Shown here: piece after piece, positions 26,736 to 60,752 of the stretch
Layout of the letters: each line of letters begins with the position of its first letter
How positions within the stretch are numbered: the first letter of the stretch is position 1
DNA from: an uncultured SAR116 cluster alpha proteobacterium
GTDB taxonomy: Bacteria; Pseudomonadota; Alphaproteobacteria; Puniceispirillales; Marisalimonadaceae
Reading direction: 5' to 3'
Assembly (NCBI GenBank): GCA_902590245.1
Contig: CACIWG010000005.1
Location: forward strand, 19,966 to 83,965
DNA: 64,000 nucleotides
The notes under the pieces: generated by a model
Seen by the model: only the letters and a program-made list of their open reading frames with translations
The model's database searches: none
What the model was told of the DNA's origin: nothing
Program-made: the position numbers and the translations under genes

Positions 26736-28103
26736 TTAATTCAGAACTTTTATTCTACCTTTTAAGAAAAATATGAGAATTAATGATGGTATGACCATTA
26801 AACAAGTAATAATAAAAAATAATCCCCAGTCACCATTTAAATAATCGACTAAACTTCCAGAAGAAGATGCTAATGTTGTTCTTCCTAAAGTACCAATTGA
26901 GGCTAATAATGCATATTGAGTTGCAGTATATTGTCTATTAACCAACACAGATATAAATGCAACGAAAGCAACAGTAGCGAATGCAGCTGCCAGATCATCT
27001 AAAATAACAGCTATAGAAAAAATGAAGTAACTTTTTCCTGCCCAAAATAAAATAGAAAACAGAAGATTTGTTATTGCCATAAATATTCCAGCAATAATGA
27101 TAGATCTTACCAATCCAATTTTTACAGTTAAAAATCCACCAATTAGAGTAAATAAAATAGTAGTGATCCACCCAAGACCTTTTGAAAAAATACCTATATC
27201 AGATTTGGTAAAACCAATTTCTTTGTAAAAAATTAAAGACATACGGCCAAGAAAAGCTTCTCCAATTTTAAATAAAAATATAAATGCAATTAAACCTATG
27301 CCAATAGCTAGACCATTTTTTTTAAAAAAATCATATATCGGGGCAACTATAGTTTCAAACATCCATAATAAGATAAAGTTTATTTTTTTTTCAAAAATAG
27401 ATAATTTTGAATTTTTCATTATATTTGATTTATTTTTGTTTGATTTAATTTTAGGTATTTCATTAATTGTTAATAATAGAAGATTTAACAACATTAAAAT
27501 AAAAAATAATAAAATAAACGTAAGTTGCCAGTAATTATCAAATCCTATTTTTTCAAAATAATCTGATATTAAAAGTGATAATAAACCTCCAATTTTAAAT
27601 CCCGTCCACCATCCAATTACAGCCATTGAAGCAGCTGCTGCCATTATATTATTTTCATTTGATTTTATTTGTTCAATTCTTAACGCATCAATTGATATAT
27701 CTTGAGTAGATGAAAAAATCGCGATAAATAATCCAATTAAGATTACAAAAAATAAGTTTTTTTCTGGGTCAATACTAGACCAAATTAATAATGATATACT
27801 AATGAAAAACTGCATTAAAAAAATCCAAGACTTTCTGTGTCCAATTTTTTTTGTAAGCCAAAAAATTTTTAACTTATCAACTAGAGGAGCCCAAAGATAA
27901 TTGATTGCGTATACAGCAAATATTGCTCCTGCCCAACCAATTGTACTTCTGCTTAAACCTTCCTCTTTTAGCCATAGACTTAAACTCGACCCAATCAAAA
28001 CCCAAGGAAAACCACTTATAATCCCAAGTAGTAAAATTTTTAACATTCTTATTTCTAAAAACACTTTGATCGTAAGAAATTTATTCTGTTTTAATATTTT
28101 CAT
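26736..28103 (-). CDS. ampG: AmpG-like MFS muropeptide permease
   Basis: GIISGFPWVLIGSSLSLWLKEEGLSRSTIGWAG, INYLWAPLVDKL, GHRKSWIFLMQF, FSSTQDISIDALRIE. Confidence 0.88.
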   Translation of the reverse strand: MKILKQNKFLTIKVFLEIRMLKILLLGIISGFPWVLIGSSLSLWLKEEGLSRSTIGWAGAIFAVYAINYLWAPLVDKLKIFWLTKKIGHRKSWIFLMQFFISISLLIWSSIDPEKNLFFVILIGLFIAIFSSTQDISIDALRIEQIKSNENNIMAAAASMAVIGWWTGFKIGGLLSLLISDYFEKIGFDNYWQLTFILLFFILMLLNLLLLTINEIPKIKSNKNKSNIMKNSKLSIFEKKINFILLWMFETIVAPIYDFFKKNGLAIGIGLIAFIFLFKIGEAFLGRMSLIFYKEIGFTKSDIGIFSKGLGWITTILFTLIGGFLTVKIGLVRSIIIAGIFMAITNLLFSILFWAGKSYFIFSIAVILDDLAAAFATVAFVAFISVLVNRQYTATQYALLASIGTLGRTTLASSSGSLVDYLNGDWGLFFIITCLMVIPSLILIFFLKGRIKVLN

Positions 28104-28161: not shown

Positions 28162-28686
28162 ATGATCATTTACCTTAATACTATTTATAAATCGAAAATA
28201 ATATTTAAAAAAAAAATTTTCCCTTGCCAGCTTGGCAAAAATGGTAGAGTTCCAAGTTACAAGAAAAGAGAAGGAGATAAATGTACACCTTCAGGTAAAT
28301 TCATTATTAGATCTATCTTTTTAAGAAAAGATAAAAAATTAAATATTCGTTTGAGAAAGTCAATAAAAAGAAAAATTTTTTATGTTCGTGAAAATTATGG
28401 ATGGTGTGATGATGTTCGCTCTAAACAATATAATCAATTGGTAGATTTAATTCCTAACTTTGATTATTCACATGAAAAATTATATAGATGTGATGATGTT
28501 TACGATATAACTTTAGAATTAAACTATAATCAAAATCCTACCTTCAAAAATAAAGGAAGTGCTATATTTATACATTGTTCTTTTAATGATTTAAGAAATA
28601 CAAATGGTTGTGTTGCTATAAAAAAAAATAATTTAAAATTTATAATTAATAATTTACAAAAAATAAATTACATATATATAAGATGA
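28162..28686 (+). CDS. YkuD-domain (L,D-transpeptidase fold) protein without signal peptide; candidate cytoplasmic L,D-carboxypeptidase
   Basis: GRVPSYKKREGDKCTPSGKF, IFIHCSFNDLRNTNGCVAIKK active-site Cys; no N-terminal signal. Confidence 0.8.
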   Translation: MIIYLNTIYKSKIIFKKKIFPCQLGKNGRVPSYKKREGDKCTPSGKFIIRSIFLRKDKKLNIRLRKSIKRKIFYVRENYGWCDDVRSKQYNQLVDLIPNFDYSHEKLYRCDDVYDITLELNYNQNPTFKNKGSAIFIHCSFNDLRNTNGCVAIKKNNLKFIINNLQKINYIYIR

Positions 28687-31581: not shown

Positions 31582-32742
31582 TTAAGTTCTCCTTTTTAAA
31601 AGTAATTTTTGTAATGGATATGTTTTTAATTTCATTATTCTATTTTTGTTAAAATTTTTAGATAAAATTTCTAGATCTTGTTTTAATATTAAAAGGTAAT
31701 TATACCATTCACGAGATAAAGGCGATTTCCACTTCCACAAAAGAAAATCTAAGTGTTCAAATATATTTTTAGGTATTGAAATTTTACGTATTTTTTTTTC
31801 AAAAGAAAATATTGGACTTTCAAAAAAGTCTATAATCTTAATAAGAGAATTAGGTATTTGATTTTCTAAAATAGTTTTCTCCCATTCAGCAATTTTATTT
31901 TTATTTTTTAGACAATTGTTAATTATTTGAATTAGTAATTTATCAGTATTTATTAATCCGGTTAAGTTGAACATTAAACTTTTTTTCATATTATTAAAAG
32001 GATAAGGCCCAAGAAAAATTTTATTTGGACAATAATCATTCGCATAAAAATTGTCCCAGTAAATTACCTTATTTTTATCGAAAAGGCATTTAATTTTTTT
32101 TTGATCTGTTTCAAATTTTTGGTTTACGATAAATTTTCCACAATAAAATAAATTTGAATTTCCATTCAATTCTATAATCAAATCATCAATATATGTTGAA
32201 CTTTCACTAATAAGTTCATCTGCATAAATTCTTGGGACAACAAAAATTTCTCTATTTAGCTTTTTAGATAAAATTCTAACTAACTTACCGTGTGACTTAC
32301 CTTCATTGTAATTTTTAAATTTGCTTAACTTAGAAAAAACGTTTGGGATATCGTCAAATAAAAGCGCAATTTCGTCAGCACCATTATTTATTAAGATTTT
32401 ACATTTATCTAAAAGAGTATTTAAATCATACTTTGGTAATTTCTCTTTTTGATAAATTTCTGAAAAATTAAAATCTGCTCCTGGTGATACACCTACTATA
32501 ATTTTTATTTTATTTTTTTTAGCGTTTAAACAAAAATGTGAAAATTTGTTAAGCCAAATTTTAGAATATTTTCTTCTCCAATCAAATCTGTGATTTAAAT
32601 CTTCTTTAGGAGCATAAAAATAGGCATTCATATTATTTTGTTTAAGTGACAAAAGAATACTGTTTCGGTCTCTCCAATTCAATAAATTTCCATAATAGCC
32701 TTCAATATAGCCTAAATAAGTATTTGTTCTTAAATATTTCAT
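31582..32742 (-). CDS. GH84-family beta-N-acetylglucosaminidase-like protein, no signal peptide
   Basis: GYIEGYYGNLLNWRDRNSIL, YFYAPKEDLNHRFDWRRKY, GADEIALLFDDIP (catalytic Asp pair of GH84). Confidence 0.85.
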   Translation of the reverse strand: MKYLRTNTYLGYIEGYYGNLLNWRDRNSILLSLKQNNMNAYFYAPKEDLNHRFDWRRKYSKIWLNKFSHFCLNAKKNKIKIIVGVSPGADFNFSEIYQKEKLPKYDLNTLLDKCKILINNGADEIALLFDDIPNVFSKLSKFKNYNEGKSHGKLVRILSKKLNREIFVVPRIYADELISESSTYIDDLIIELNGNSNLFYCGKFIVNQKFETDQKKIKCLFDKNKVIYWDNFYANDYCPNKIFLGPYPFNNMKKSLMFNLTGLINTDKLLIQIINNCLKNKNKIAEWEKTILENQIPNSLIKIIDFFESPIFSFEKKIRKISIPKNIFEHLDFLLWKWKSPLSREWYNYLLILKQDLEILSKNFNKNRIMKLKTYPLQKLLLKRRT

Positions 32743-32768
32743 AATGTATTATAACGTAATATTTTTTT

Positions 32769-33467
32769 TTGAGGAAAAAAATGAAGGTTTTAGCAATTGG
32801 CGCTCACCCTGATGATATTGAGATATTTATGTATGGATTATTATGTCTATTAAAAAAAAATAATATCGAAATATTTATGATTATAGCCACTGATGGATCT
32901 CTTGGAGGTAAAAAATATAATAATTTAATTCAATTAAGAAAAGACGAATCTATAGAGGCATTAAAAAGAATAGGTATTCCTAAATTTTTAAATTTGCCGG
33001 ATAGTAGATTAGGAGATGAATATTCTCATAAAGATAAATTAAGACATGAAATTGATGAAATTTCTCCTGATTTAATTATTACGCACTATCATGAAGATTA
33101 TCATTCTGATCATAGAAATTTATCTAAATTAGTAAAAGATATCTCAAGTCATAATTTTCCTGTTTTGTATTGTGATACTATGATGGGTATAAATTTTTTA
33201 CCAAATTTTTATTTTGATATATCTGAATTTTTTGAGGAAAAAAAAGAAGCTATTCTTAATCACCAAAGTCAAAAGCCTGATAGATTCATAAAATTAATTG
33301 AATTAATGAATGGCTATAGATCTGCTCAGTGTAACGCAAAATTTGGATCTTTTGCAGAAGCTTATTTTTTTAATTCTTCATTTCCATTTGCCAACATAAA
33401 TAATATTCTTCCACAAACTATTAAAATTAGAAAATTTGATATTGATGGTAATTATGGATTTCTTTAA
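32769..33467 (+). CDS. PIG-L (LmbE-like) deacetylase
   Basis: VLAIGAHPDDIEIFMYG, ATDGSLGG, DLIITHYHEDYHSDHRNLSKLV. Confidence 0.92.
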   Translation: MRKKMKVLAIGAHPDDIEIFMYGLLCLLKKNNIEIFMIIATDGSLGGKKYNNLIQLRKDESIEALKRIGIPKFLNLPDSRLGDEYSHKDKLRHEIDEISPDLIITHYHEDYHSDHRNLSKLVKDISSHNFPVLYCDTMMGINFLPNFYFDISEFFEEKKEAILNHQSQKPDRFIKLIELMNGYRSAQCNAKFGSFAEAYFFNSSFPFANINNILPQTIKIRKFDIDGNYGFL

Positions 33468-34540
33468 ACAGTATAAATATCTCCACAAATTGTAGGTTTG
33501 AACACACCAGTTGTAGAAGGAAATGTAGAGGGTAACTGATTTAATCTTCTGATTGAAAGGTAAGCTATCATTTCAGATTCAATGTAATCAGAAGATATTT
33601 GATATGAATTAAGGTCATAAAACTGAGCATCAATTGAATTTTTTAATTTATTTAAAATATATTTATTTTTATAACCACCTCCAGTTATACAAAAAGATTT
33701 GATCTTATTTGGCATTGAATTGATGGAATTTATTATTGAAATGACTGTAAGTTCAGAAAGAGTAGCCAATTTATCATTAAGGTCTAATATGTTTGTATCT
33801 ATATCTAAAAGGTATTTTTTGAAATAAAGTTTATCCAAAGATTTGGGTATAGCTGATTTAAAAAAATTGTCCTCTAAAAATTTTTTAACTTCTTTATAAT
33901 TTACTTTTCCGGCAAGTGACAACTCTCCATTATTATCAAATTCTTCATTAGTATATTTTTTTACAATTTCATCTAATAAACAATTTCCTGGCCCAGTATC
34001 AAATCCAAATAGGTTGATACCGTCCCAATAAGTTAAGTTTGAAATTCCACCAATATTTATAAAGCACGCAGGTAGAGGCATTAATAAGTCTTCAATAATA
34101 CTTTTGTGATATATTGGAGATAGAGGTGCTCCTTGTCCATTATTTAAAATATCATTTTTACGAAAATTATTTATAATTTTTTTTCTAAATTTATTAGCAA
34201 TAGTTTTTGGATTGCCTACTTGTATAGAAATTTCTTGAGGAACGTGTAGTAAAGTTTGACCATGAAATCCTATAACTTCACATAAGTTTACAAAGTTTGA
34301 TGCCTCCAAAGCTCTTATGTATTCATCGGTAATAATTTGATCTAAATAATTTAAAGTTGTTTTATTAAAGTTATTTTCAGAAGTAACTCTTTTTAAAGCA
34401 TCTTTAGTAGAACGTTTGTAATTTAAAAAAAAATTTTTTTTACATCTTTGGATTTTTTTTCCATCAGTTTTAATTAAGCTTAAATCTACTCCATCCATGC
34501 TAGTACCGGACATAATGCCAATTGTATTTATGTAATTAAT
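33464..34540 (-). CDS. anmK: Anhydro-N-acetylmuramic acid kinase; ORF track starts at ATG 34513, conserved N-terminus extends to probable ATT start at 34540
   Basis: TIGIMSGTSMDGVDLSLIKTDG, IGFHGQTLLH, NIGGISNLTYW, FDTGPGNCLLD; GGAG 6 nt upstream of ATT. Confidence 0.88.
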   Translation of the reverse strand: MNYINTIGIMSGTSMDGVDLSLIKTDGKKIQRCKKNFFLNYKRSTKDALKRVTSENNFNKTTLNYLDQIITDEYIRALEASNFVNLCEVIGFHGQTLLHVPQEISIQVGNPKTIANKFRKKIINNFRKNDILNNGQGAPLSPIYHKSIIEDLLMPLPACFINIGGISNLTYWDGINLFGFDTGPGNCLLDEIVKKYTNEEFDNNGELSLAGKVNYKEVKKFLEDNFFKSAIPKSLDKLYFKKYLLDIDTNILDLNDKLATLSELTVISIINSINSMPNKIKSFCITGGGYKNKYILNKLKNSIDAQFYDLNSYQISSDYIESEMIAYLSIRRLNQLPSTFPSTTGVFKPTICGDIYTV

Positions 34541-34642
34541 ATTTTTCTCCTTAGATAAAGTAATATTAATAAAGTTTATTTAAATTGATGACATATGTAT
34601 ATTTATTTAATAAGAATAATGAATTAGGGATATTTAATCTAA

Positions 34643-35389
34643 ATGACAAATGAACTAAAAACTGAGAAACGTTACCCATATTCTAAACCAATTGATAAGC
34701 TTAAACTAAATGAAGCTATTGAATTGATGATTAAAGAACAAAAACATTCAATATCAACATTGATTGAGAATAAAAAAATATTAGATGAAGTTATTTCAAA
34801 TATATCATCTAAATTATCTTGCTCCAGTGAAGGAAGACTTATTTATACTGGTGCTGGTACATCTGGAAGAATAGGTGTACAAGATGGCATTGAATTATAT
34901 CCGACTTTTGGATGGCCTAAAAAAAGGTTAAATTTTTTAATTTCTGGTGGGAAAAAAGCATTATACAGTACTGTTGAAAATGCAGAAGATAATATATCTA
35001 TTGCAAAAAGAATGGCAAATAAAATTAAGTTTACAAATAAGGATGTTTTAATTGCTATCTCTGCTAGCGGCAATACTCCTTTTACACTCGAGGTATTAAA
35101 GATTGCTAGCACAAAAAAAGTTCTGACCATATCATTATGTAATAATTGGAATTGTATAATGAAACAACATTCAGATTTCTCTGTTATTTTAGATACAGGA
35201 GAAGAATTAGTAGCAGGTTCTACTAGGTTAAAAGCTGGTACATCTCAAAAAGCATGTCTTAATTTGATTTCTACACTTGTCATGACTAAATTAGGAAAAG
35301 TTTCTAACGGTTTAATGGTTAATATGATCCCAACAAATAATAAATTAAAAATACGTCAAAAAAAAATCAATGAAATGAAAAAGTTATGA
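34643..35389 (+). CDS. murQ: N-acetylmuramic acid 6-phosphate etherase, C-terminally short
   Basis: GRLIYTGAGTSGRIGVQDGIELYPTFGWP, ISASGNTPFTLEVL, STRLKAGTSQKACLNLIST; ends shortly after NKLKIRQ. Confidence 0.9.
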   Translation: MTNELKTEKRYPYSKPIDKLKLNEAIELMIKEQKHSISTLIENKKILDEVISNISSKLSCSSEGRLIYTGAGTSGRIGVQDGIELYPTFGWPKKRLNFLISGGKKALYSTVENAEDNISIAKRMANKIKFTNKDVLIAISASGNTPFTLEVLKIASTKKVLTISLCNNWNCIMKQHSDFSVILDTGEELVAGSTRLKAGTSQKACLNLISTLVMTKLGKVSNGLMVNMIPTNNKLKIRQKKINEMKKL

Positions 35390-39635: not shown

Positions 39636-40400
39636 TTAATTAATAATCTTCTTAATTTTAATTATTTTTCCACTATTTATAGATATTCTTTTTATTGCAT
39701 CTTTCAAAGGTTCAACTTTTACTTCCATATGATAAGCATTACTATGAATTATTTTGCTCTTACTAAGAGCAATAGCTACATGTCCCTCCCAGAATAAAAT
39801 ACTTCCTTTTTCAATAACTTTCGTGTCATAAATATTTTTTGATGTGAAATTTACTTGATCAACTGTGTTTCTAGGCAACTTTATTTTATTTGTTTCCAAA
39901 CATAATTGAACTAAGCCAGAGCAGTCAATCCCTTGAAGAGTTTTTCCACCTAGTAAGTATGGTGTACCAATAAAATCTTTTGTATAATCAAGCCAATGTT
40001 TTGCATTTACATCATCGTTTAGTTTTATATGACGTGTTGGTAAAAAACCAGTTTTTGAGTTATTATTAAGTATTATTTCTGTCCAATCTTCTAATATGTT
40101 TTTAACAAGAATTTTTGAATTCAAATAAAGTTTTAATAGGTACTTTGATTTGATATCTGGTTTTTCGTAAACAATAGTATTTTTATTTATTATAATGTGC
40201 GTGTATTTAAAATAATTCCCTAAATGTTTTTTATGTATCCAGCCGAGATAATCATCATAAATATTTCTACAGTAAAACCATTCTCCATTATTATGTATGA
40301 TTTTTATTTCTTCTCCGTATAAAATTTCAGTTTCTAAATTTGAACTATGATCATTTTTTTTTCGCATAGAAGCAAAAGATGTAACAATCCTTTTTTTCAT
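39636..40400 (-). CDS. SH3-NlpC/P60 (C40) peptidase, YkfC-like, no evident signal peptide
   Basis: SH3-like repeats; FIGTPYLLGGKTLQGIDCSGLVQLCLE, GSILFWEGHVAIALSKSKIIHSN. Confidence 0.9.
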   Translation of the reverse strand: MKKRIVTSFASMRKKNDHSSNLETEILYGEEIKIIHNNGEWFYCRNIYDDYLGWIHKKHLGNYFKYTHIIINKNTIVYEKPDIKSKYLLKLYLNSKILVKNILEDWTEIILNNNSKTGFLPTRHIKLNDDVNAKHWLDYTKDFIGTPYLLGGKTLQGIDCSGLVQLCLETNKIKLPRNTVDQVNFTSKNIYDTKVIEKGSILFWEGHVAIALSKSKIIHSNAYHMEVKVEPLKDAIKRISINSGKIIKIKKIIN

Positions 40401-40820
40401 TTAACTTACACCAGTTTTTTTCAACCATGATTTTACATCAAAATTTGGACATGTCTTTTTAGTATTACTAAAACTTGAGTGACCTAATATTTCTGCGTCA
40501 GGATATTTTTTTTTCCATTTTATAATTAATTTTTTAAGAGATAAAAATTGATTTTTAGTAAATTTGTCTTTGCCAATCAAACAAATCCCAAGACTATTGT
40601 CATTATTACCATAAACATGTGCCCCTATCCAAAACTCTGGTCTTCCATGTTCTATAACTCCATTTCTTTTAATAACTCTGTGATATCCAATACCATCCCA
40701 TCCAAAACTTAAATGTAGTTTGTGTATGTCAAAAGCATTACGTAATTTAAATTTATCATCTGAACAATGAATAACAATATATTTTACTTGCATAATTAGA
40801 TTATCTTTCATAAGGATCAT
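40401..40820 (-). CDS. N-acetylmuramoyl-L-alanine amidase (Amidase_2, T7-lysozyme/AmpD-like)
   Basis: YIVIHCSD, GWDGIGYHRVIKRNG, ILGHSSFSNTKKTCPNFD zinc ligands; no signal peptide. Confidence 0.9.
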   Translation of the reverse strand: MILMKDNLIMQVKYIVIHCSDDKFKLRNAFDIHKLHLSFGWDGIGYHRVIKRNGVIEHGRPEFWIGAHVYGNNDNSLGICLIGKDKFTKNQFLSLKKLIIKWKKKYPDAEILGHSSFSNTKKTCPNFDVKSWLKKTGVS

Positions 40821-58191: not shown

Positions 58192-58968
58192 ATGGAATTT
58201 ATAGAAACAAAAAAAATTACAAATAATATTGCTAAAATAACACTCACTAATGGTAAAAAATACAACCCATTATCTTTAAATGTGTTAAGACATCTAAATA
58301 GTGAATTCAATGATTTGTCAAATGATTCAAATGTGAAAGCAATCATAATCTCATCAAATGGTCCTGGTTTCTCAGCAGGGCATGATTTACAAGAGCTTAA
58401 ACAAAATAAAAATAATAAAGAATTTTTTACTGAACTTTTTAATGAGTGTTCAGATCTAATGTTAAAAATAATGAAATCACCTCAACCGGTAATAGCTCAA
58501 ATACCTGGGGTCGCAGCTGCGGCAGGATGTCAATTAGTTGCAACATGTGATCTCGCTATAGCATCTAATGAAGCAGTTTTTATAACTCCTGGCGTAAATA
58601 TAGGTTTATTTTGTTCTACACCAATGGTTGCGGTTTCTAGATCTCTAGGTCGAAAAAAAACAATGGAAATGTTGTTAACTGGTGAAAGTATGAATGCTAA
58701 GGATGCTGTTAGTTTTGGGTTAATTAATAAAAATGTTCCTTTAAACGAATTAGAGATAACAGTATTAAACTTTGCAAAATTAATTGCATCTAAACCAACT
58801 TCAACTGTTAGAATTGGGAAAGAAGCATTTTATAAACAAGCCGAATTGCCAATAGAAAAAGCTTATAAATATACATCTGAAGTTATGGCTCAAAATATGT
58901 TAAAAAAAGATGCTAAGGAGGGCATAGAAGCGTTTCTAGAAAAAAGAGAACCCAAATGGGAAAATTAG
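58192..58968 (+). CDS. Enoyl-CoA hydratase/isomerase family protein
   Basis: NGPGFSAGHDLQEL, IAQIPGVAAAAGCQLVATCDLAIAS. Confidence 0.93.
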   Translation: MEFIETKKITNNIAKITLTNGKKYNPLSLNVLRHLNSEFNDLSNDSNVKAIIISSNGPGFSAGHDLQELKQNKNNKEFFTELFNECSDLMLKIMKSPQPVIAQIPGVAAAAGCQLVATCDLAIASNEAVFITPGVNIGLFCSTPMVAVSRSLGRKKTMEMLLTGESMNAKDAVSFGLINKNVPLNELEITVLNFAKLIASKPTSTVRIGKEAFYKQAELPIEKAYKYTSEVMAQNMLKKDAKEGIEAFLEKREPKWEN

Positions 58969-60752
58969 AGATTATCCAAAGATACTTTTAAATCATTGAT
59001 AATATCATCACTGTGTTCTAATCCAATTGACAATCTAATGACGTTATCCCCCGCACCAGATATTTCCCTCTCTTTAGGGTTCAATTGTCTGTGCGTTGTT
59101 GAAGCGGGGTGTATTATTAAAGATTTTGTATCACCAACATTTGCTAAATGTGAAAATAAATTACAGTTTTCAACAATTTTTTTAGCTCCATCAAACCCAG
59201 CTTTAACTGAGATTGTAAAGACAGATCCAAAACCAAACTTAAAATACTTTTTTGCTAATTGATATGATTTATTTTTTTGAAAGCCACTCCAAGATACAGA
59301 ATCTACTTTATCATGTTTTATCAGGAAATTTGCAACTTCATCCGCGTTTGACATATGTTTTTGCATTCTTAAGTTTAGTGTTTCAATTCCTGTCAAAGTT
59401 AAATAAGCATTAAATGGTGACATAGTAGCACCTAAATCTCTTAAAGCACTGACATGGCAAAAATTGATATATGCTAAGTTACCAAATGTTTCAAAAAATT
59501 TAATTCCATGATATGAAGTATCAGGTTCAGTCAATTTTTCAAAATCTCTGCCCTTATTCCAGTCAAATTTACCTGCATCTACTACACAACCTCCCATAGC
59601 ATTCCCATGACCAGATAAAAATTTAGTTGTAGAATATATAATTATGTCTGCACCATAATTTGATGGCTGACAGATAGCTTGTGTAGCCATTGTATTATCT
59701 ATTATTAGAGGTATTCCCTCATTATGGGCCAATTCTGATAATTTCTCTATGTCGGAAACAAATCCCTCAGGGTTAGATAAGCTTTCTGCAAATAGTGCTC
59801 TAACATTCTTTGCTTTGATGGCTTGTTTTATCTCATCATAATTTGTTATATCAACAAGATCGGTTTCCCATCCAAATGATTTAAAACTTTTTGTGAATTG
59901 TGTTATTGAACCACCATAAAGTTTTGAACTAGCAACTATTTTTTTGCCTGGACTTAGTAAAGGATATAAAGCAATAAGTTGAGCTGCATGGCCAGATGAA
60001 ACGCAACAAGATCCAACAGCATTATCTAATGCTGCAATTTTTTGCTCTAAAGCTGCAGTTGTTGGATTAGATAAACGTCCATAAATATTACCATTTTCCT
60101 GCAAATTGTATAAAGATGCTGCATGTTCACTGTCATCGAAGGCAAAGGCTGTTGATTGATAAATTGGAAAACTTCTTGCACCTGTAACTGGATCTGGTGA
60201 CGTTCCAGCGTGTATACTTAAAGTTTCTATATTATTTGATTTAATAAAATTTCCTGAATTGTCATTATTGTTTATTAATTTATTTTTTTTAGATGAAATC
60301 AATTTAGAATAAAATCCTCCACTTCCTAACTCACCAAATATTCTTGAGTGTTCAATTTTAGGGCATCTATTATAAATACAATCTAAATTATTTTTCAAAA
60401 CTAAATCATTAGCCTCTGAGTTAAAGATACCGATTTGCATCCAAAAAACTTTTGCTTTAATTTTAATTGTATCTTTAGCTAATTCTAAACATTCGTCACT
60501 TTTTCGAAAAACATCAACCATATCAATATTAATAGGAATGTCTTTTAATGATGCATAACATAATTCATTATGAATTTTTTTACCAGCTTCTTTAGGATTT
60601 ACAGGTATTATTTTATAACCTTTCCTTTGTAAATATTTCATTACAAAATTAGATGGTCTTTTCCAATTATTACTGGCCCCAACTACTGCAATCGTTTTTA
60701 CTGAGGATAAAATATTCGCAATTTTTAAATCACTAAATTTATCATCATTCAT
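58965..60752 (-). CDS. Fusion: N-terminal CoA-binding domain + O-acetylhomoserine sulfhydrylase
   Basis: N-term IAVVGASNNWKRPSNFVMKYLQRKGYKIIPVNPKEAG; C-term ETLSIHAGTSPDPVTGARSFPIYQSTAF...IIYSTTKFLSGHGNAMGG. Confidence 0.93.
   Translation of the reverse strand: MNDDKFSDLKIANILSSVKTIAVVGASNNWKRPSNFVMKYLQRKGYKIIPVNPKEAGKKIHNELCYASLKDIPINIDMVDVFRKSDECLELAKDTIKIKAKVFWMQIGIFNSEANDLVLKNNLDCIYNRCPKIEHSRIFGELGSGGFYSKLISSKKNKLINNNDNSGNFIKSNNIETLSIHAGTSPDPVTGARSFPIYQSTAFAFDDSEHAASLYNLQENGNIYGRLSNPTTAALEQKIAALDNAVGSCCVSSGHAAQLIALYPLLSPGKKIVASSKLYGGSITQFTKSFKSFGWETDLVDITNYDEIKQAIKAKNVRALFAESLSNPEGFVSDIEKLSELAHNEGIPLIIDNTMATQAICQPSNYGADIIIYSTTKFLSGHGNAMGGCVVDAGKFDWNKGRDFEKLTEPDTSYHGIKFFETFGNLAYINFCHVSALRDLGATMSPFNAYLTLTGIETLNLRMQKHMSNADEVANFLIKHDKVDSVSWSGFQKNKSYQLAKKYFKFGFGSVFTISVKAGFDGAKKIVENCNLFSHLANVGDTKSLIIHPASTTHRQLNPKEREISGAGDNVIRLSIGLEHSDDIINDLKVSLDNL

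Follow-up and report, generated by a model that had tools for sequence, protein, structure and literature searches.

A GH84 β-N-acetylglucosaminidase as the proposed replacement for NagZ in the peptidoglycan recycling of SAR116 marine bacteria

The window, a 64,000-nucleotide stretch of DNA from an uncultured SAR116 cluster alphaproteobacterium, places a gene for a GH84-type hexosaminidase beside genes of amino-sugar recycling, and raises the question of which enzyme removes GlcNAc from GlcNAc-anhMurNAc in these abundant marine organisms. In other bacteria this step falls to NagZ, which is regarded as its standard enzyme and also as a drug target, since inducible β-lactamase declines when NagZ is lost. 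NagZ accepts the disaccharide with or without the peptide attached (PMC9790009; PMC13046382). Judging from sequence, structure prediction and gene context, the GH84 protein is very probably the cytoplasmic β-N-acetylglucosaminidase of SAR116 peptidoglycan recycling and stands in place of NagZ, with a substrate that we infer.

The GH84 open reading frame occupies positions 31582-32742 of the minus strand, as initially proposed, and encodes 386 residues from an ATG start. The hallmarks that the sequence-only reading had recognized are all found, comprising GYIEGYYG (residues 11-18), YAPKED with K46, and ALLFDDIP with the aspartate pair D130-D131. In a profile search, PF07555 (NAGidase) reaches 141.5 bits (cut-off 25; E 4.8e-41) and is the only domain found in the frame, with no GH3 N-terminal domain. 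Matches to the solved structures of human OGA, C. perfringens NagJ, OgOGA and BtGH84, all GH84 enzymes, have E values of 1e-20 to 1e-6, and together these results place the GH84 match far beyond chance. Residues K46, D130, D131, Y173, W229, N231, D236 and N259 are invariant in an alignment of 39 homologues from the order, and the GlcNAc-pocket residues of GH84 (the Asp pair with Lys, Tyr, Asn and Asp) align with those of human OGA. The AlphaFold (AF2) model, with a pLDDT of 89.5 and a pTM of 0.90, has the TIM-barrel fold of GH84 enzymes; in the structural comparison with GH84 templates that had been suggested as a check, the top Foldseek match is OgOGA (7khs; E 7.9e-18, TM 0.75 by query), and the best 50 PDB matches listed are all GH84 entries. 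The frame is a bona fide member of the GH84 family in which all catalytic residues are conserved. Its coding start lies only about 9 residues ahead of the first β strand of the barrel, leaving no room for a signal peptide, and the absent leader points to a cytoplasmic location. The closest named relatives come from SAR116 cluster single-cell genomes and MAGs.

The neighbors named beforehand, PIG-L, AnmK and MurQ, are all present beside GH84 by profile matches, and four further recycling genes that the sequence-only reading had not mentioned (AmpG, YkuD, NlpC/P60 and Amidase_2) also lie in the window:

26736..28103, minus strand: AmpG-family muropeptide permease (TIGR00901, 354.4 bits against a cut-off of 350)
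28162..28686, plus strand: leaderless YkuD-domain protein, candidate ElsL-type cytoplasmic L,D-carboxypeptidase (PF03734, E 4.3e-9)
31582..32742, minus strand: GH84 β-N-acetylglucosaminidase, predicted cytoplasmic, proposed NagZ replacement (386 aa; catalytic Asp130/Asp131; PF07555, PDB OGA, AF2, Foldseek)
32781..33467, plus strand: PIG-L/LmbE deacetylase, proposed NagA (GlcNAc-6-P deacetylase) replacement (PF02585, E 2.8e-25)
33464..34540, minus strand: AnmK anhydro-N-acetylmuramic acid kinase (PF03702, E 2.8e-69)
34643..35389, plus strand: MurQ MurNAc-6-P etherase, short form without the C-terminal ~55 residues (NF003915, 265 bits against a cut-off of 168, profile positions 3-241 of 300)
39636..40400, minus strand: SH3-NlpC/P60 endopeptidase, candidate YkfC-like recycling peptidase (PF00877, 2e-16; PF18348, 3.1e-9)
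40401..40820, minus strand: leaderless Amidase_2, AmpD-like anhydromuramyl-L-alanine amidase (PF01510, 6.9e-15; against the AmpD profile NF008758, 30.4 bits, under the cut-off of 143)

Counting as linked any gene within 10 kb of GH84, 20 GH84 loci of the window's family carry AnmK and PIG-L without exception (20/20 each) and AmpG, MurQ and YkuD at 18/20 each. At 20 loci of two sister families, AnmK and AmpG are each linked at 18/20, MurQ and YkuD at 16/20, NlpC at 15/20, the amidase at 13/20 and PIG-L at 12/20. One locus (L095) has the island in about 9 kb, in the order amidase, NlpC/P60, permease, AmpG, YkuD, MurQ, AnmK, PIG-L, GH84, and an M19 dipeptidase gene after GH84 is an addition seen in the sister families. 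A 687-aa frame joining GH84 and M19 (L107:9492-11555) was considered as a functional link and set aside; ~71 positions at the start of the profile are missing from its M19 part, so that assembly or a frameshift may have created the frame artificially.

The strands of GH84, PIG-L, AnmK and MurQ (31582-35389) alternate (-,+,-,+), as they do in relatives, and the gap of 26-38 bp between GH84 and PIG-L contains a TATAAT near the GH84 start. The first standard start of AnmK is at 34513, and homologues together with an AAGGAG site point to an ATT start at 34540 (34538-34540); since the first ATG falls within the GLMSGTS motif, ATT appears to be the start, as either an uncommon start codon or an error in the sequence. 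The short MurQ (~250 aa) is found across SAR116 (the window and L062-L107), whereas one from Granulosicoccaceae has its full length of 304 aa. Amidase_2, SH3 and NlpC/P60 are fused at two loci (L089:2352-3659 and L102:12130-13383), so that a single polypeptide carries both the AmpD-like amidase and the endopeptidase of recycling. Elsewhere in the window, a 595-aa frame (58965-60752, minus strand) appears by eye to combine a CoA-binding-like N-terminus with a PLP O-acetylhomoserine sulfhydrylase-like part.

Co-occurrence with a canonical GH3 NagZ within one genome had been named beforehand as evidence against the replacement of NagZ, and no such gene was found with the GH3 profile PF00933 in the window's assembly (1.56 Mb, 75% complete). 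The profile likewise finds no GH3 in 58 genomes of the family (0/58), and among 136 genomes of the order only two matches, both doubtful, compared with 323 of the 386 genomes sampled evenly across the Alphaproteobacteria; these figures cover GH3 alone among the hexosaminidase families, and the family and order genomes are MAGs and SAGs, many just 50-90% complete and related to one another, so that the counts are not independent. One of the two matches (L087, in G120) is a fragment in a chimeric frame of a genome that also has GH84; the other (L086, in G097) is a real nagZ-scpA-scpB contig, but in a bin that is 7% contaminated and without GH84. None of the 43 order genomes above 90% completeness shows a GH3, and the same profile detected GH3 in 10 of 14 control genomes, Caulobacter among them. 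GH84 itself occurs in 42/58 family genomes and 87/136 order genomes. In the class draw it is found in 11 of the 386 genomes, of which the five belonging to the order all lack GH3 and the six others, on a remote GH84 branch of the tree (support 100/100), all have it. Within the family (n=58), GH84 and AnmK are both present in 40 genomes, both absent from 15 and discordant in 3, a joint absence that one missing contig can explain for neighboring genes in incomplete genomes. Neither GH84 nor GH3 is present in 11 of the 43 good order genomes, and the GlcNAc-removal step is therefore dispensable or absent there. This distribution supports the replacement of NagZ, as does the position of the gene, and in our judgment the order has very probably lost GH3 NagZ, with GH84 taking its place. 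The setting of GH84 is that expected of a NagZ, a leaderless protein with AmpG, AnmK and AmpD-like genes and no other NagZ in the genome.

A phylogeny within GH84, another of the checks suggested at the outset, unites the SAR116 proteins and those of Granulosicoccaceae (Gammaproteobacteria) in a single clade (support 100/98). Within 10 kb of GH84 in Granulosicoccaceae, AmpG is found at 12/12 loci, NlpC at 10/12 and Amidase_2 at 9/12; these AmpG proteins have 46-70% identity to their best SAR116 reference, and one of them (L148) exceeds the TIGR00901 cut-off. The part that these loci have in common with SAR116 consists of recycling genes only. The recycling link is specific to one GH84 clade, since none of these genes lie within 10 kb of GH84 at SAR86-like (0/20) or Fibrobacterota (0/6) loci, both of which fall outside it. 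The GH84 genes of SAR86 (L194-L217) and Fibrobacterota (L186-L195) are related and leaderless-looking, with unrelated gene surroundings; GH84 lies between translation and cofactor genes in the two SAR86 loci that were read completely.

A similar substitution is suggested for NagA, the enzyme of the deacetylation further along the pathway. The PIG-L frame was listed from a TTG at 32769, and the ATG at 32781, a better fit to homologues, is likely the true start. Its metal motifs, AHPDDE and DYHxDH, are invariant in the alignment, and its nearest solved relatives are diacetylchitobiose deacetylases and BshB. Despite the presence in the family of MurQ, which makes GlcNAc-6-P, no NagA (TIGR00221) scores above cut-off in any of the 58 family genomes, where weak matches fall far under it. 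A 407-aa NagA-like protein was rejected as a candidate, as it matches NagA in two short stretches only and resembles a PhnM-type amidohydrolase. Over the order (n=136), 15 genomes have NagA and 71 have an island-type PIG-L, and no genome has both (Fisher 6e-6 for the order and 1e-8 for GH84-positive genomes, both inflated by relatedness). The exchange is visible within genera, with NagA in G066-G068 and PIG-L in G063-G065 and G069 of genus g6, and NagA in G072 and PIG-L in G074 of genus g8; in genus g14, NagA lies ~5-7 kb from GH84. Because the two never co-occur across the order, PIG-L is probably the GlcNAc-6-P deacetylase in place of NagA. Counting against this are 8 of the 87 GH84-positive order genomes, which have neither (69 have PIG-L and 10 NagA) and include the single-contig G124 and G135, with GH84, AnmK and MurQ present. 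In Caulobacter, complete loss of NagA was not obtainable, and GlcNAc-6-P toxicity is suspected (PMC13046382).

Other roles for GH84 have to be weighed against these observations. If GH84 were instead a protein O-GlcNAcase that reverses O-GlcNAc modification in the bacterium, the role put forward for Thermobaculum terrenum, its recycling neighbors would be incidental; the nearest characterized proteins, in sequence as in fold, are indeed O-GlcNAcases, and an O-GlcNAc system is known from bacteria (PMC4683255). Such a role is nevertheless highly unlikely, as it predicts neither the linkage to AmpG, AnmK and MurQ, which is kept in three SAR116 families and, for AmpG, in a second class, nor the near-exclusive distribution of GH84 and GH3 in the order, while the SAR86-like and Fibrobacterota genes outside the clade stand without recycling linkage. 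Alternatively, GH84 might cleave other imported GlcNAc glycosides, such as chitobiose or glycan fragments, with a GlcNAc-6-P branch common to this route and recycling. GH84 enzymes take various aryl and alkyl GlcNAc glycosides, and the relatives of PIG-L include diacetylchitobiose deacetylases; yet the linked transporter is of the AmpG family, the substrates of the remaining linked enzymes are anhMurNAc or muropeptides, no chitin genes were seen among the annotated GH84 neighbors, and GlcNAc-anhMurNAc would be left without a hydrolase, so that this alternative is also improbable, to a marked degree.

The NagZ activity could also come from another enzyme, GH84 and the recycling genes being mere neighbors on a conserved chromosomal segment. 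In the window's family the non-recycling genes hppA and HIBADH are indeed conserved neighbors of GH84 as well, but in the sister families these two are not next to GH84 whereas the recycling genes are, and Granulosicoccaceae keep the recycling part only, which renders a merely positional association extremely improbable.

Under the favored reading, with GH84 in place of NagZ, the steps would run in the following order, which, like the PIG-L substrate, we infer. AmpG would import GlcNAc-anhMurNAc-peptides, whose peptides would be processed by the AmpD-like amidase, the YkuD protein and NlpC/P60; GH84, replacing the GH3 enzyme NagZ lost by the order, would remove GlcNAc by substrate-assisted (oxazoline) catalysis at Asp130/Asp131; AnmK and MurQ would convert anhMurNAc to GlcNAc-6-P; and GlcNAc-6-P would be converted to GlcN-6-P, probably by PIG-L, and by NagA in a few members. 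It seems reasonably likely, with some reservation, that SAR116 recycles amino sugars with GH84 standing in for NagZ and PIG-L for NagA, neither being related to the enzyme it replaces and both being encoded in one compact island, and that the presence of GH84 in Granulosicoccaceae, where AmpG and AmpD-like genes adjoin it, possibly reflects interclass transfer.

Within the collection of papers searched, none among those listed ties GH84 to peptidoglycan recycling and none concerns GH84 with SAR116; for GH84 with NagZ recycling, an inhibitor paper was the one match. Very probably, a known enzyme family is met here in a new role, as a non-orthologous NagZ replacement that has become established in most of a major marine order. 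If so, GH84 gains a bacterial housekeeping role in a major ocean order, and the recycling of wall sugars by SAR116 without NagZ or NagA is explained; the pathway should be blocked by OGA inhibitors such as Thiamet-G and not by NagZ-selective ones, and scoring recycling pathways by the presence of NagZ or NagA would be unsafe.

Compared with NagZ of E. coli, Caulobacter and Agrobacterium, the SAR116 enzyme is alike in its proposed step (GlcNAc off GlcNAc-anhMurNAc), in its predicted location and in its partners AmpG, AmpD and AnmK, but belongs to a different, unrelated family, with the GH84 Asp pair and no GH3 domain. GH84 enzymes proceed through an oxazoline, whereas NagZ forms a covalent glycosyl-enzyme. 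The closest solved fold, OgOGA of Oceanicola granulosus (PDB 2xsa, 7khs), is also an alphaproteobacterial GH84, with only 19% identity to the protein of the window, and its gene adjoins an acetyltransferase gene (PMC3814719). Human O-GlcNAcase has a long stalk and an acetyltransferase-like domain, both missing from the window's GH84, whose C-terminus is short and helical and bears a conserved WKWK-PL-REWY segment. In the human numbering, K98, D174, D175, Y219, N280, D285 and N313 align with K46, D130, D131, Y173, N231, D236 and N259. In Acinetobacter, the L,D-carboxypeptidase that serves recycling is the leaderless YkuD protein ElsL (PMC8649774), the model for the linked leaderless YkuD protein of 174 aa, which by this analogy plausibly fills the LdcA step. 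NagA, finally, is an amidohydrolase unrelated to the LmbE-like PIG-L to which its step is here provisionally assigned, and is found in 10 GH84-positive order genomes that lack PIG-L.
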